A stretch of DNA of 64,000 nucleotides from Pseudomonas fluorescens (GTDB lineage: Bacteria > Pseudomonadota > Gammaproteobacteria > Pseudomonadales > Pseudomonadaceae), in the NCBI RefSeq assembly GCF_902497785.1, contig NZ_CABVHK010000002.1:186001-250000 (forward strand), given 5' to 3'. Of this stretch, positions 7,925-16,132 are shown in pieces (positions within the stretch are counted from its first letter, which is position 1; the number at the start of each line of letters is the position of its first letter). The position numbers were made by a program, and so were the translations under genes. The notes below the pieces were generated by a model. The model saw nothing but the letters and a program-made list of their open reading frames with translations, made no database searches and was not told the origin of the DNA.

Positions 7925-9223
7925 TTACTGGGCGGCTTTGACGGCCGATGCCAGTTGGGCGCTGGCCTTGGCCGGGTCAGCATCCTTGTCGTTCATGAAG
8001 TTGGTGACCACGTCGAAGATCGCGCCTTGCACGGCCAGGGATGTGGCCATGTTGTGCGCCATGCTCGGTTGCAGGCCGCCCGTCTTCTCGTCCGCCAGGA
8101 AATCCTTGGCGGCCGATTGAGCGCAGGAATCGAAGCCCAGGCCGCTCATGTCGTTGAGCATGTCGGTGCGGACCGGGATCGAGCCTTTGTTGATGCTGAA
8201 GACCTTCTGGAAGTCTTTACCCAGCGCGACCTTGGCCAGGTCTTGCTGAGCGGCGATGTCGCCCTTGCGATCGGCTTTCAACTTGAACACCGCCAGGGAG
8301 TCGATGTTGTAGGTGAAGGCTTTTTCGGTGCCCGGGAACGGCACGCACTGGTAGTCCTTGCCTGCCACTTTTTTCGCGGCAGTCCATTCGCTTTTCGCCC
8401 AGTCGCCCATCATCTGCATACCGGCCTTGCCGTTGATGACGTCGGCGGCAGCGATGTTCCAGTCACGACCGGCGCGGTTCGGGTCCATGTAGCCCGTGAG
8501 TTTTTTCAGCTCGGTAAACGACTTGGTCATCTCGGCCCCGGAGAGGGTTTTCTGATCCAGGTCTACCAGCGCTTTTTTGTAACCGTCAGCCCCCATGACC
8601 GAGAGCACCACGTCTTCAAACACGGTGCTGTCCTGCCAAGGCTGGCCACCGTGGGCGAGCGCAATGAAGCCTGCGGCTTTGAGCTTGTCGCCGGCGGCAT
8701 AGAATTCTTCGAGGGTGGTCGGGGCTTTTTCGATGCCGGCTTTCTTGAACACTTCCGGGTTGATCCACAGCCAGTTCACGCGGTGAATGTTCACCGGAAC
8801 GGCGACGTAATCACCTTCGTACTTGACCGTGTCGGAGACTTTCTTCGACAGCAAGCCATCCCAGCCTTCGGACTTGGCAACGTCTTTCAGGGTGTCGGTG
8901 CTGAGCAGGCCAGTGCTGCCCCACTCCTGGATGTCCGGACCTTTGATCTGGGCAACGCCCGGCGGGTTACCGGCAACGGCGCGGCTTTTGAGTACGGTCA
9001 TGGCTGTGGAACCGCCACCACCGGCAACAGCGCCGTCCTTCCAGGTGAAGCCGTCTTTTTCGACTTGAGCCTTCAGAACATCGACCGCTGCTTTTTCACC
9101 ACCCGACGTCCACCAGTGAACGACTTCCACGGAACCTTTGGATTCGGCGGCAAGCACACTGAGAGGGAGCGCAGACAGGGAAGCGAGAGAAATGACAGTA
9201 GCGAGGCGAGAAATCGCATTCAT
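7925..9223 (-). CDS. gtsA: Glucose ABC transporter periplasmic binding protein GtsA
   Basis: 432-residue family 1 extracellular solute-binding protein that captures sugar in the periplasm. It has a Sec signal peptide ([20 protein letters not shown], cleavage near VLA-AE) followed by [20 protein letters not shown], typical of Pseudomonas/Thermus glucose-binding proteins. [18 protein letters not shown] and the [10 protein letters not shown] segment also fit the family. It is the first gene of gtsABCD. The leader holds an AACAACAA motif abutting AGAAAGG and a 41-bp element shared with the AGE gene, pointing to both transcriptional and post-transcriptional control. Confidence 0.94.
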
Positions 9224-9238
9224 CTAAAAGTACCTTTC

Positions 9239-9246
9239 TTGTTGTT
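9239..9246 (-). promoter_or_regulatory. CA motif in gtsA leader, candidate Hfq/Crc site
   Basis: The minus strand reads ATAACAACAAGAAAGG just before gtsA; AACAACAA fits AANAANAA and touches the Shine-Dalgarno. Translational repression by Hfq/Crc is inferred. Confidence 0.6.
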
Positions 9247-9307
9247 ATGCATTGCAAGTCTGGTGCTTGCGCTGCATGGATTTTAAACAGGAGTCATCCC
9301 TTCGCAG

Positions 9308-9348
9308 GTAACGAAGGGACGCGTGAATGTCACCGCATGGTTACATAG
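9308..9348 (-). promoter_or_regulatory. Shared 41-bp promoter element, gtsA copy
   Basis: Plus-strand pattern GTAACGAAGGG-N5-T-N2-ATGTCACCG-N3-TG-GTTACA also occurs upstream of the AGE gene at 10661-10701. On the minus strand it contains TGTAAC-N6-GTGACA followed by CCCTTCGTTAC. It sits 85-125 bp upstream of the gtsA start and overlaps the last codons of the AGE gene. It is probably a transcription-factor site; GltR is one candidate. Confidence 0.6.
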
Positions 9349-10600
9349 AACCGCTCTGGGACAACCTTGCCAAGGCGCTGGCCATGCTCGGCGCCAGCGG
9401 CAGGCGCGGAATCAACACGGCTTGCCAGGCGTGATAAAGGTCGGGTTTACCGGCCCAGATATCGGCACTCGGGCGGTTGAGCGGATCAAGTTCGTGGTGC
9501 CAGCTGCCATCGCAGCGGTCGATGAAATGACGGTCACAGAAATCCCAGAACAGTCGGTACCAGGTTTCGTAGTGCGCCTCGCCCGTGCGTTTAAGCAGCG
9601 CGCTGGCCGCGGCGCTGGCCTCGCAATGGGTCCAGTGCAAACGATGGCGAACCACGGCGCGATTGTCCCAATCGAGGGTGTAGACGATCCCCGGTTCACC
9701 GTCGATATTCCAGCCATGGCGGCAGTTGTGTTCGAAGAGTTTTTGCGCGTCGGTGACCAGCCATCCCGGCGTCAGCATCCCGGCCTGCACCCGCGCCGCT
9801 TCGAGGTGCAGCAACAGCCGCGCCCATTCGAAACCGTGGCCCGGGGTGGTGCCGTAAGGACGGAAACCATCGGCCGGGTTGTCGTGGTTGTAATCGCGCA
9901 GCGGTTGCCAGTCGCGGTCGAAATGCTCCACCACCAGAAAGTCGTTGGCGGCGGCGTGACCATGGATCACGCGCTCGACAATGCGTTGCGCGCGGCACAG
10001 CCAGCGGTTGTCTTCGGTGACATCGGCGAGGGCGAGGAAGGCTTCGGTGGCGTGCATGTTGCTGTTGGCGCCGCGATAGCTTTCTTCTTCACTCCAGTCG
10101 CGATTGAAGGATTCGCGCATGGCGCCCTCCTCTTCGCTCCAGAAATGCGTGTCGATGATGTCGATCGCGTCATCGAGCAAGGCTTGCGCGCCGGGACGTT
10201 GCGCGACCACCGCAGAGCTGGCGGCCAGGGCGACGAAGGCGTGCAAGTAAGCCGCCTTGTCGGTGTTGTCATCGCGGTGATGCGCGGTGGCAAACCAGCC
10301 GCCGTGCGCGGCATCCTTCAACGGCCCGCTGAGTGCCTGAATGCCATGGTCCACCAGCGCGGCGAAGCCCGGCAGGCCCTGGATATGGGCCATGGCGAAG
10401 CTGTGGGTCATGCGCGCGGTGTTCATGGTTTCGGCTTGGGCATTCGTCGGCAGGCAGCCCTTTTCATCGAGATTGCCGAAACCGTCAGGCAGCTGCGAAG
10501 CCTTGGCGAATGCCAGCAGGCGAAGGCCTTCGTCGGCGAGCCATTGCAGATGGGCCGGTGCGTTCAGCCAACTGCTGAAGCCGGGTTGGAAGGTGTCCAT
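9341..10600 (-). CDS. AGE-family sugar epimerase/isomerase (N-acylglucosamine 2-epimerase fold)
   Basis: 419-residue cytosolic (alpha/alpha)6-barrel enzyme of the AGE superfamily, which includes N-acylglucosamine 2-epimerase, mannose isomerase and YihS. Visible family segments: MTHSFAMAHIQGLPGF, HGGWFATAHH, NSNMHATEAFLALADVTED, TPGHGFEWARLLLHLEAARV and HRLHWTHCEASAAASALL, with histidines placed as in mannose/fructose isomerases. Location just upstream of gtsABCD, sharing a promoter element and a CA motif with gtsA, argues for a hexose such as mannose rather than an acylated amino sugar. Substrate is inferred. Confidence 0.8.
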   Translation of the reverse strand: MDTFQPGFSSWLNAPAHLQWLADEGLRLLAFAKASQLPDGFGNLDEKGCLPTNAQAETMNTARMTHSFAMAHIQGLPGFAALVDHGIQALSGPLKDAAHGGWFATAHHRDDNTDKAAYLHAFVALAASSAVVAQRPGAQALLDDAIDIIDTHFWSEEEGAMRESFNRDWSEEESYRGANSNMHATEAFLALADVTEDNRWLCRAQRIVERVIHGHAAANDFLVVEHFDRDWQPLRDYNHDNPADGFRPYGTTPGHGFEWARLLLHLEAARVQAGMLTPGWLVTDAQKLFEHNCRHGWNIDGEPGIVYTLDWDNRAVVRHRLHWTHCEASAAASALLKRTGEAHYETWYRLFWDFCDRHFIDRCDGSWHHELDPLNRPSADIWAGKPDLYHAWQAVLIPRLPLAPSMASALARLSQSGSM

Positions 10601-10612
10601 GGGGTGCCTTTT

Positions 10613-10620
10613 TTGTTGTT
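10613..10620 (-). promoter_or_regulatory. CA motif in AGE-gene leader, candidate Hfq/Crc site
   Basis: The minus strand reads ATAACAACAAAAAAGGC before the ATG at 10600; AACAACAA fits AANAANAA and abuts the Shine-Dalgarno. It is nearly identical to the gtsA leader. Confidence 0.6.
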
Positions 10621-10660
10621 ATGACTGCAGGCAGTCTAAACAACGGGCGGGGGTGGGCTT

Positions 10661-10701
10661 GTAACGAAGGGCGCGCTATATGTCACCGTTTTGTGACAAA
10701 G
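10661..10701 (-). promoter_or_regulatory. Shared 41-bp promoter element, AGE-gene copy
   Basis: GTAACGAAGGG-N5-T-N2-ATGTCACCG matches the gtsA copy. On the minus strand it contains a perfect inverted repeat TGTCAC-N6-GTGACA followed by CCCTTCGTTAC. It lies 61-101 bp upstream of the AGE start. Confidence 0.6.
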
Positions 10702-10704
10702 CGG

Positions 10705-10780
10705 GATCAAAAGATCGCAGCCTTCGGCAGCTCCTACGCAGGTCGGTGTAGGAGCTGCCAAAGGCTGCGATCTTTTGATC
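10705..10780. repeat. Extragenic palindromic repeat, type A
   Basis: GATCAAAAGATCGCAGCC..AGCTCCTAC pairs with GTAGGAGCT..GGCTGCGATCTTTTGATC; inverted arms of about 33 bp with a short loop. It lies between gltS and the AGE gene. Confidence 0.88.
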
Positions 10781-10783
10781 TGC

Positions 10784-12253
10784 TTAGTCGACACTCCGAG
10801 GTAGTTGCAGCGTCACTCTCAGCCCGCCTTCACGCAAATTCTGCAGACTCACCTCGCCGCCATGGCTATGCGCAATGTTGCGCGCAATCCCCAACCCCAG
10901 CCCATAACCCTGCTGCTGCCCGGCCAGCCGGAAGTGCGGCTCGAATACCTGCTCCAAGCGTTGCTCCGGCACGCCCGGCCCTTCGTCATCGACGTGCAGG
11001 ACAAACGCGTTCTCGTCGTCATCGATATGCAGGTGCGCGTTCTGCCCGTACTTCAAGGCGTTGTCGATCAGGTTGCCGATGCAGCGCTTGAGCGCCAGCG
11101 GTTTGCCGGGATACGCTGCCAGGGCCCGCCCCTGCTGGGTGACGCGACCGTTGCCGTTGGGCGCCAGATACGGCTCCACCAGGCAATCGAGCACATGGTT
11201 GAGGTCAACCGGTTCGATGTTTTCGTGGATGTCCGTATCTTTCACGCATTGCAACGCACCTTTGACCAGCAGCTCCAGCTCATCCAGATCGCGGCCGAAC
11301 TTGGCTTGCAGCTTTTCGTCCTCGAGCAATTCGACCCGCAGGCGCAGCCGGGTGATCGGTGTGCGCAAGTCATGGGAAATCGCACTGAACAACTGACTGC
11401 GTTCGGTCAGGTAACGGCTGATGCGTTCGCGCATGGCATTGAACGCGCGGCCCACTTCAACCACTTCACTACCGCCGCCCTCCGCCACCGGCTCGACTTC
11501 GGCGCCGAGGGACATGTCCCGCGCCGCCCGCGCCAGACGCTTGAGCGGACGACTTTGCCAATGCACCAGCAGACCAATGAACAACAACAGAAAACCGCTG
11601 GTGAGGACGATGAACCAGACCTGCTGCGCCGGTAGGCCCTGCTCTTCGAGACTGGTGTAGGGCTCGGGCAACAAGGACGCGATGTACAGCCATTCCCCCG
11701 GCGCCATCTGGATTTGCGTGACCAGCACCGGCGGGTTCACCGGTTCCAGGGTCAGCGCGTAATGCGCCCACGAGCGCGGCAGTTCATCGAGTTTCAGGCC
11801 ACCGTTGAAGATCCGCAGGTCTTCGGGGCTGACGAAAGTCACCGAGATGTCCGTGTCCTGTCCCAGCGACTGGCGCAGCACTTCGTCCACCGCCTTGAGC
11901 ACCGCTTCTTTGCGCGGGGTGATCGGCAGCACGTCCATGCCCAGGGGTTTGTCATTGAGGGTCACCACGAAACGGGTGCCGCCCATGCTGCGCAACTGAT
12001 CGAGTACCAGCGGCCGGAACGCCACCGGCAACGAACGGAAATAACTGACGCTGGCGGTCATCGAATGCGCGAGGCTGCGGGCGCTGGTGACCAGGCCTTC
12101 CAACTGCGTGGCGCGCAATTGCGAGACCCAGATCACGCTCGATAGTGCCTGCGCGAACAGCACCGCCAACAGGGTCAGCAGCAACATCCGCCCGAGCAGT
12201 GAACGCGGTACCGGCACGCGGGCGGCGAGCTTTCGGAAGAACTCAGTGACCAT
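10784..12253 (-). CDS. gltS: GltS, sensor histidine kinase of the GltR/GltS glucose system
   Basis: 489-residue inner-membrane histidine kinase. Two membrane helices (about residues 20-45 and 215-235) bracket a ~170-residue periplasmic sensor. HAMP follows, then the phosphoacceptor motif SAISHDLRTPITRLRLR (His at about 294) and an ATPase domain with N box IGNLIDNALKYG and VDDEGPGVPEQ. It pairs with GltR, which activates glucose-transport genes in Pseudomonas. The start is set at 12253, where ATGGTCACTGA overlaps the gltR stop by 11 bp; an earlier in-frame ATG at 12295 would lie deeper in gltR. The symbol follows the usual name for the GltR partner and is not the glutamate permease GltS. Confidence 0.88.
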   Translation of the reverse strand: MVTEFFRKLAARVPVPRSLLGRMLLLTLLAVLFAQALSSVIWVSQLRATQLEGLVTSARSLAHSMTASVSYFRSLPVAFRPLVLDQLRSMGGTRFVVTLNDKPLGMDVLPITPRKEAVLKAVDEVLRQSLGQDTDISVTFVSPEDLRIFNGGLKLDELPRSWAHYALTLEPVNPPVLVTQIQMAPGEWLYIASLLPEPYTSLEEQGLPAQQVWFIVLTSGFLLLFIGLLVHWQSRPLKRLARAARDMSLGAEVEPVAEGGGSEVVEVGRAFNAMRERISRYLTERSQLFSAISHDLRTPITRLRLRVELLEDEKLQAKFGRDLDELELLVKGALQCVKDTDIHENIEPVDLNHVLDCLVEPYLAPNGNGRVTQQGRALAAYPGKPLALKRCIGNLIDNALKYGQNAHLHIDDDENAFVLHVDDEGPGVPEQRLEQVFEPHFRLAGQQQGYGLGLGIARNIAHSHGGEVSLQNLREGGLRVTLQLPRSVD

Positions 12254-12974
12254 TGCTGGCAACCACATTGGCAGCCAATTGATAACCGCTGCCACGCACT
12301 GTGCGGATCAGCCGAGGCGGTTTTTCCGTATCGCGCAGGCGCTGGCGCAGACGGCTGACTGCCATGTCAACGATCCGGTCCAGCGGCATCAGGTCGCGAC
12401 CACGGGTGGCATTGCCGATGGTGTCGCGATCGAGGATTTCCTGCGGGTGATCGAGGAACAGTTTCAGCAGCGCGAAGTCAGCGCCGGAGAGAATCACTTC
12501 TTCGCCGTCAATGTGAAACAGCCGATGGCTGACCATGTCCAGGCGCCAGTCATCGAAGGCCAGCACTTCACCGCCGGAACGTTCCTGACCGAATTGTGCG
12601 CGGCGCAACAAGGCTTTGATCCGCGCCTGGAGTTCACGGGGGCTGAAGGGTTTGCCGAGGTAGTCGTCCGCGCCCAGCTCCAGGCCGATGACACGGTCGG
12701 CTTCGTCGGAACTGGCGGTGAGCATGATGATCGGCACTTGCGCCTGACGCGGGTGCTGGCGGATCCAGCGGCAGAGGCTGAAACCGTCTTCGTCGGGCAG
12801 CATCACGTCGAGGATCACCAGATCGCTCGGCGCGTCGTTCATGGCTTGGCGGAAACCGGCGCCGTCGGGCGTGGTGCGCACCTGAAAACCCGCGCGGGTC
12901 AGGTAGGTGTCCAGCAACTCGCGTATCTCTTGATCGTCATCGACCAACAAAATCGACTTGTTGACTGAGCTCAC
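12243..12974 (-). CDS. gltR: GltR, OmpR-family response regulator for glucose transport
   Basis: 243-residue two-component regulator: receiver domain with acidic pocket LLVDDDQE (11-14) and phosphoacceptor Asp56 in LVILDVMLP, then an OmpR/PhoB winged-helix domain (about 140-235, DRTIG-like and VSRLRQRLRD segments). In pseudomonads GltR controls oprB, the gts transporter and itself. The start is GTG at 12974 with AAGGACG seven bases upstream and a CA motif just before it. Order edd-glk-gltR-gltS on one strand matches P. putida. Confidence 0.92.
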   Translation of the reverse strand: MSSVNKSILLVDDDQEIRELLDTYLTRAGFQVRTTPDGAGFRQAMNDAPSDLVILDVMLPDEDGFSLCRWIRQHPRQAQVPIIMLTASSDEADRVIGLELGADDYLGKPFSPRELQARIKALLRRAQFGQERSGGEVLAFDDWRLDMVSHRLFHIDGEEVILSGADFALLKLFLDHPQEILDRDTIGNATRGRDLMPLDRIVDMAVSRLRQRLRDTEKPPRLIRTVRGSGYQLAANVVASNGH

Positions 12975-16055: not shown

Positions 16056-16070
16056 TTGTAGATTGAACAA
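16056..16070. promoter_or_regulatory. HexR operator candidate (edd side)
   Basis: TTGT-AGATTGA-ACAA matches the HexR consensus TTGT-N7/8-ACAA. It lies 121 bp upstream of the edd start. Confidence 0.7.
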
Positions 16071-16117: not shown

Positions 16118-16132
16118 TTGTAATTCCAACAA
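16118..16132. promoter_or_regulatory. HexR operator candidate (gap side)
   Basis: TTGT-AATTCCA-ACAA matches the HexR consensus and lies 24 bp upstream of the gap ATG. It overlaps an AACAACAA string at 16128-16135. Confidence 0.7.

Follow-up and report, generated by a model that had tools for sequence, protein, structure and literature searches.

Both gtsA and the neighbouring gene of an AGE-family D-mannose isomerase are preceded by a copy of one composite element in the window, i.e. the whole stretch of 64,000 nucleotides of Pseudomonas fluorescens DNA that was analysed. With high probability both copies are GltR operators joined to a promoter, from which glucose would activate expression of gtsABCD and of the D-mannose isomerase gene via the -35 region. 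At gtsA the element is a known site, the GltR operator, now seen in one more species. The copy at AGE appears to be a new and well-conserved member of the same operator type, and the control of a mannose isomerase by GltR to which it points is new as far as our searches show, being undescribed in the open-licence PMC papers searched. The genes for the glucose transporter and for the D-mannose isomerase are very probably switched on together. Here, the GltR operator at gts is defined precisely and across the family by its three half-sites and the constant position of the -10, D-mannose isomerase is added as a likely second GltR target, and a testable reason is offered for the conflict about GltR as activator or repressor, namely a start site that was mapped inside the operator. 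The finding is sound and useful more than surprising. The degrees of confidence attached to the individual explanations are not exclusive shares.

The original prediction had placed a common 41-bp element at 9308-9348 (gtsA) and 10661-10701 (AGE), and both copies were found there. On the minus strand they read TGT(A/C)AC-N6-GTGACAT followed by CTTCGTTAC, with GTNAC cores that start at 1, 12 and 33 (numbered from the first G) in both copies, the resulting spacings of 11 and 21 bp being close to one and two helical turns. The module consists of three GTNAC half-sites, the second 11 bp and the third 32 bp after the first, and then of a -10-like TANNNT that starts 22 nt past GTTAC in both copies of the window (Table 1). 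Comparison of the two 201-bp upstream regions gave a best ungapped 41-mer identity of 29/41, the maximum among 500 dinucleotide-shuffled pairs being 25/41. A chance origin of the likeness is ruled out by these shuffles together with the conservation across loci. As predicted, the two arms of the inverted repeat match completely at AGE and with one mismatch at gtsA, the elements lie within 60-125 bp upstream of their genes (61-101 bp for AGE, 85-125 bp for gtsA), and the gtsA copy overlaps the end of the AGE reading frame with the stop codon inside half-site GTAAC. Overlooked at that stage were the greater length of the element, its -10-like box and a CA-rich leader motif common to both genes.

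Table 1. Features of the gts locus and of its two operator-promoter modules (positions in the window)
Feature	Position	Strand	Remark
gtsA, glucose ABC transporter binding protein (gltB in P. aeruginosa)	7925..9223	-	name from synteny and literature; sugar-binding family matches below cut-off only
CA-rich Hfq/Crc-like motif CATAACAACAAGAAAGG, gtsA leader	9233..9249	-	
gtsA-specific leader stem GCAAG-N7-CTTGC	9254..9270	-	
gtsA promoter, -10-like TAAAAT	9280..9285	-	22 nt past GTTAC; agrees with predicted -10 position in SBW25 (PMC6692132)
gtsA operator, third half-site (H4), CTTC-GTTAC	9308..9312	-	reverse complement GTAACGAA
gtsA operator, half-site H2, GTGAC(ATT)	9329..9333	-	homologous to P. 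aeruginosa GTGACAAA core
gtsA operator, half-site H1, GTAAC	9340..9344	-	contains AGE stop codon TAA, 9341-9343
AGE-family D-mannose isomerase gene	9341..10600	-	NF051846, 735.6 bits versus cut-off 600
CA-rich leader motif CATAACAACAAAAAAGG of AGE	10607..10623	-	
AGE promoter, -10-like TAGACT	10633..10638	-	22 nt past GTTAC
AGE operator, third half-site (H4), CTTC-GTTAC	10661..10665	-	
AGE operator, half-site H2, GTGAC(ATA)	10682..10686	-	
AGE operator, half-site H1, GTCAC	10693..10697	-	
gtrS, sensor kinase	10784..12295	-	EnvZ-like kinase families, below their cut-offs
gltR, OmpR/PhoB-type response regulator, putative reader of both operators	12243..12974	-	

The 18-bp inverted-repeat pattern is, with up to two mismatches, not rarer than expected by chance in the window (6 matches versus 6.75 expected), and exact matches occur only at these two elements. 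The palindrome as the whole story was rejected, the third half-site and the -10 spacing being equally conserved. The orientation of the half-sites can be read from their flanks. H2 fits GTNAC-A-W-W in the forward direction (2.89 of 3 for gtsA and 2.96 for AGE, versus 0.96 and 0.98 in reverse) and H1 in the reverse direction (2.55 and 2.86 versus 1.70 and 1.29 forward), and among the 168 distinct gtsA windows the third core, read in reverse, is GTAAC-GAA 152 times and GTAAC-AAA 16 times. In their better orientation all three half-sites are thus GTNAC followed by A/T-rich bases or GAA, and this fit of the flanking columns means that the inverted repeat is real, with a third half-site added to it.

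The genes of the locus were named with different degrees of support. The names gtrS and gltR were assigned from gene position and from the published P. aeruginosa system, and the nearest solved structures of the AGE product are YihS-type sugar isomerases. In many loci that lack AGE at this place a gtrS orthologue is found within approximately 1.5 kb before gtsA. Between the AGE promoter and the end of gtrS there is also a long inverted repeat (about 10707-10778; TCAAAAGATCGCAGCCTTCGGCAGCTCCTAC and its complement with one mismatch), possibly a terminator or a REP-type element.

The phylogenetic extent of the module was followed in loci gathered as 80 named with an AGE protein, 60 with gtsA from 199 genomes of the genus (182 of which have a gtsA match) and 60 further gtsA regions. 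Close relatives are among these 200 loci, and some species are probably represented twice, the number of distinct windows being 168 for gtsA and 135 for AGE. The scan of Pseudomonas genomes for the paired motif that had been proposed with the original prediction was run on them and found the motif conserved in related species. All three cores are present and correctly spaced upstream of gtsA in 197 of 200 loci and upstream of AGE in 147 of 149, a number from which seven AGE regions too short for judging were left out. The search pattern allowed the first base of H1 and H2 to vary, and strict counts were made separately: all three cores are GTNAC at gtsA in 181/200 loci and at AGE in all 147, and in 16 gtsA loci (L184-L199) the second core is ATGAC or CTGAC. 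Exceptions are few. The third core is 1 bp closer at gtsA in L138-L140, AGE in L200 has kept the first two cores and lost the third, and AGE in L114 shows no core before the start codon used. TANNNT follows 21-22 nt past the last core in 196/197 gtsA and 147/147 AGE windows (at 22 nt in 175 and 132, at 21 nt in 21 and 15, respectively), with a single gtsA case at 23 nt.

For scoring, a sequence-only model (R1) was built from 48 of the 344 windows around such sites, picked for diversity, and its matches on these 48 training windows, the window's own two sites among them, are by construction. Applied to every position of the window, this model, in which both local sites are included, gives 53.7 and 53.5 bits at the two sites. 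It finds no third copy in the window: above 4.5 bits the only further matches come from reading these two inverted repeats on the opposite strand (15.3 and 8.0 bits). The original prediction had likewise found no copy before oprB, zwf, gltR, edd or gap. In 20 hand-picked gtsA loci from eight other genera of the family, none of which was used in building the model, it locates the gtsA site in 20/20; 19 of these sites score 26.4-60.7 bits and that of L238, with a damaged first core, is weak (12.8 bits).

The element is close to unique in a genome. A scan of the whole genome from which the window was taken (150 of 1444 first-look candidates scored) yielded two full sites only, with the scores given above, and the next-best match, of 15.9 bits inside an MFS-like frame, was taken as chance. 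A second scan covered 57 hand-picked genomes with stricter filters and at most 89 candidates scored per genome. With such limits on the candidates scored, weak partial GltR sites would escape both scans; P. aeruginosa GltR ChIP-seq gave 55 enriched loci. All 40 genomes with an orthologous gtsA have the element at this gene. One full site is present in the 23 of them without AGE at the locus and two in 16 of the 17 with AGE at the locus, the genome of L200 (G086) having one, and the remaining weak matches in these 40 genomes are reverse-strand readings of the same palindrome. Among the genomes without gtsA, 16 of 17 have no element and one (G027) has a single weak match of 17.9 bits.

The distribution of the element agrees with that of the two-component system. 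The window encodes both GltR and GtrS (10784-12974), and their orthologues were found in 10/10 gts genomes checked versus 0/19 genomes without orthologous gtsA (E cut-offs 1e-90 and 1e-80 for gltR and gtrS, genomes hand-picked from earlier lists). In genome G004 gltR is located approximately 110 kb from gts and both elements are retained. Within the genus, 17 of 199 genomes (G008, G014 and 15 others) have no gtsA match, and neither gltR nor gtrS was detected in any of these 17 at the above cut-offs, which suggests joint loss of the three genes.

In P. aeruginosa both the binding of GltR and activation have been shown by others at the homologous gtsA (gltB) promoter. GltR was reported to protect two adjacent stretches there (-44 to -13 and -11 to +15), its ChIP-seq consensus was given as GTNACAAA, removal of GTGACAAA abolishes glucose induction of gltB-lux, and the 64.5-fold induction by glucose requires gtrS-gltR (PMC7927077). 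These data can be transferred via genome G511 (locus L216/L231), which has the exact 14-mer of the P. aeruginosa PAO1 gltB promoter, GTGACAAACCCGGA, upstream of gtsA together with the same three GTNAC cores and spacings, H1 lying 117 nt before gtsA and the -10-like box 21 nt on; it is the only full element of this genome. An exact search for the 14-mer gave matches in 11/398 genomes of the genus and 8/298 of the family, and of the 16 loci fetched L216 alone contains gtsA. When the published footprint numbers are mapped onto L216 (GTGAC at 1501-1505, +1 at about 1524), stretch I spans H1 GTAAC and H2 GTGAC, and stretch II spans the third core GTTAC. This means that the homologue of the element described here is the footprinted GltR site. 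Originally, both copies were taken for an operator of a two-promoter regulon for sugar uptake, read by GltR or another regulator. The choice of GltR has gained support from the same architecture, the conservation, the co-occurrence with gltR and gtrS and the near-uniqueness of the element as well as from footprint and ChIP in P. aeruginosa. The second gene is, by model match, that of a D-mannose isomerase and not an uptake gene.

A GTNACAAA-like core is present in the elements. H1 of the AGE copy matches GTNACAAA exactly in either reading (GTCACAAA at 10690-10697 on the minus strand, GTGACAAA at 10693-10700 on the plus strand) and H2 of this copy is GTGACATA; in the gtsA copy exact GTNACAAA is missing and only near matches occur (H2 GTGACATT and, in reverse, H4 GTAACGAA). 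Taken alone, GTNACAAA is no rarer in the window than expected by chance (6 matches versus 6.04). Another GltR consensus, tgGTTTTTc, was published in a 2014 study (PMC4081096) and repeated in a 2018 review (PMC5902321), with edd, gap-1, glk, oprB and toxA as targets. Neither 9308-9348 nor 10661-10701 contains GGTTTTTC with up to one mismatch, and since the ChIP-seq consensus of 2021 differs from that of 2014 its absence speaks either against the motif as given in 2014 or against the elements as GltR operators. None of the 2014 target promoters that lie in the window carries the full element in the model scan. Across the window GGTTTTTC (up to one mismatch) is commoner than chance, with 90 matches versus 51.85 expected, a number reached by 0/100 shuffles. 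An HT-SELEX paper for P. syringae names GltR and gives no motif for it in the text consulted (PMC7532196).

The AGE copy deserves separate consideration. In 43 genomes the stretch fetched before gtsA contained no AGE. Homologues of AGE (59-73% identity) occur elsewhere in 21 of these genomes, and both regular expression and model failed to detect the element at these AGE genes outside the gts locus (0/21; for one of them, L253, the absence of AGE from the locus is uncertain, since the gts contig ends about 325 nt before gtsA). In L240, from another genus, AGE is in the locus and both elements are present (29.6 bits at AGE). The element thus goes with the gts locus; a tie to AGE wherever it is located was rejected, i.e. 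mannose isomerase genes do not generally carry the element. A duplicated promoter would show just this restriction, and the AGE copy could be an inert leftover of a promoter duplication at the entry of AGE into the gts locus, with only the gtsA copy at work. We consider this very unlikely because half-sites and spacing are kept at 147/149 AGE copies although outside the core the two promoters of one genome resemble each other no more than those of different genomes do (0.383 versus 0.379, n=147), and because 20 of 147 AGE proteins are less than 70% identical to that of the window (down to 61.8%) and the element is still kept. From the missing excess of likeness within genomes it follows that any duplication is old and that only functional positions were kept, presumably by selection. 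A recent duplication or gene conversion between the promoters was not seen.

The gtsA operator includes the stop codon of AGE in 142 of 157 loci (as TAA in H1 in 115, as TGA overlapping H2 in 24 and as TGA just before H2 in 3), and because little room is left there for a terminator AGE transcripts probably run on into gtsA. Beyond the assignment of both copies as GltR operators it may tentatively be proposed that a three-part operator of mixed orientation, in a protein family for which a head-to-tail layout of half-sites is usual, belongs to a promoter module that was copied whole and so captured D-mannose isomerase into the glucose response. If true, a cell that senses glucose would prepare the conversion of mannose to fructose, and this could explain the release of fructose by P. 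protegens on glucose plus mannose. The mannose-to-fructose step was left open for P. protegens Pf-5 (PMC6293094), and AGE is a candidate for it.

How the operator might work is suggested by its geometry. Phosphorylated GltR would bind the three GTNAC half-sites that are spaced by whole helical turns, the signal presumably arriving as in P. aeruginosa via GtrS together with GltB (orthologous to GtsA) that has bound glucose. If TANNNT is taken as the -10, the end of the third half-site lies immediately upstream of the place of the -35 hexamer, and no TTGACA-like hexamer was found at this place, downstream of the last core. The arrangement suggests activation from the -35 region, as OmpR/PhoB-type activators commonly work, so that GltR would substitute for the missing -35 contact and recruit RNA polymerase to TANNNT. 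In this manner glucose would switch on both gtsABCD and the D-mannose isomerase gene, the latter from a separate promoter whose transcription could read through into gtsA.

The 2014 model, by which GltR binds as a repressor and is released on phosphorylation, was built on an operator that covers the reported start-site region and on a gltR mutant with higher expression (PMC4081096). It is highly improbable for several reasons. By the coordinates of 2014, as quoted in 2021, this start is located within half-site GTTAC, some 83 nt upstream of the ATG in L216, and the conserved -10-like box in L216 sits 21 nt downstream of that half-site. Furthermore, 5' RACE in strain SBW25 mapped the start of gtsA to a place 30 nt upstream of the ATG, 25 nt past the predicted -10 box (PMC6692132), and the 2021 study reported activation as well as stronger GltR binding on phosphorylation (PMC7927077). 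In the strain of the 2014 study the site has one base substituted and 1 bp deleted, and the start-site count may thus be off by one or two; the start site mapped inside a half-site may explain the older repressor model. The homologous -10 in the window (9280-9285) lies 57-62 nt before the ATG, and the SBW25 start agrees with it but leaves a longer gap between -10 and start than usual, a point against the explanation favoured here.

The leaders of the two genes differ in part. The stem GCAAG-N-CTTGC is present in the gtsA leaders of 191/197 loci and of 15/20 loci from other genera versus 0/147 AGE leaders. In L105 and L145 both arms have changed together, to GCAGG/CCTGC, which is a hint of a stem in the RNA. 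The RACE end of SBW25 would fall at the base of this stem and may, if the SBW25 leader is like the others, represent a processed or blocked end. The genome of the window contains two more stems of the gtsA-leader type, GCAAGNNNNAGACTTGC (G000:C5:209-225 and G000:C36:1333-1349). Both leaders of the window contain CATAACAACAA(G/A)AAAGG, and the CA-rich Hfq/Crc-like motif, as AAYAAHAA, occurs within the last 45 nt of 197/197 gtsA and 130/147 AGE leaders. In P. stutzeri a CA motif AANAANAA was described and Hfq represses gtsA (PMC11332353).

It is hardly credible that HexR or an unknown factor reads the element: the 18-bp palindrome is a kind of site suited to the dimer of a one-component repressor and HexR controls genes neighbouring the locus, but the homologous promoter has a GltR footprint (PMC7927077), genomes that lack gltR also lack the element (16/17, one weak match), and sites of the HexR type, TTGT-N7/8-ACAA (PMC5489143), match in the window only at 16056, 16118 and 17468 (3 matches versus 1.57 expected by chance), so HexR was rejected as reader. 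Two of these HexR-type sites, 16056-16070 and 16118-16132, are situated between edd and gap, as in other pseudomonads, and both genes are under HexR control (PMC5489143, PMC5902321).

A comparison with known systems shows what is common and what is peculiar. HexR operators are related to the element by the neighbouring edd and gap genes on which HexR acts and differ from it in sequence, none being located at the two promoters. Operators of the OmpR/PhoB family such as the PhoB box are composed of 11-bp repeats that overlap the -35 region. The element shares with them the 11-bp step between half-sites, the position in the -35 region and an OmpR/PhoB-type protein as its probable reader. In contrast with the tandem direct repeats of this family its half-sites H1 and H2, at a spacing of 11 bp, have flanks that fit opposite orientations; GTNAC is its own reverse complement, and the flanks favour one direction for H1 and the third site and the other for H2. 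With the GltR operator at P. aeruginosa gltB, published as a GTNACAAA motif (PMC7927077), it has the orthologous gene in common, and the gtsA promoter of G511, which carries the reported 14-mer, has the same architecture; to this description the present work appears to add the three-half-site layout, the fixed -10 spacing and the copy before D-mannose isomerase.
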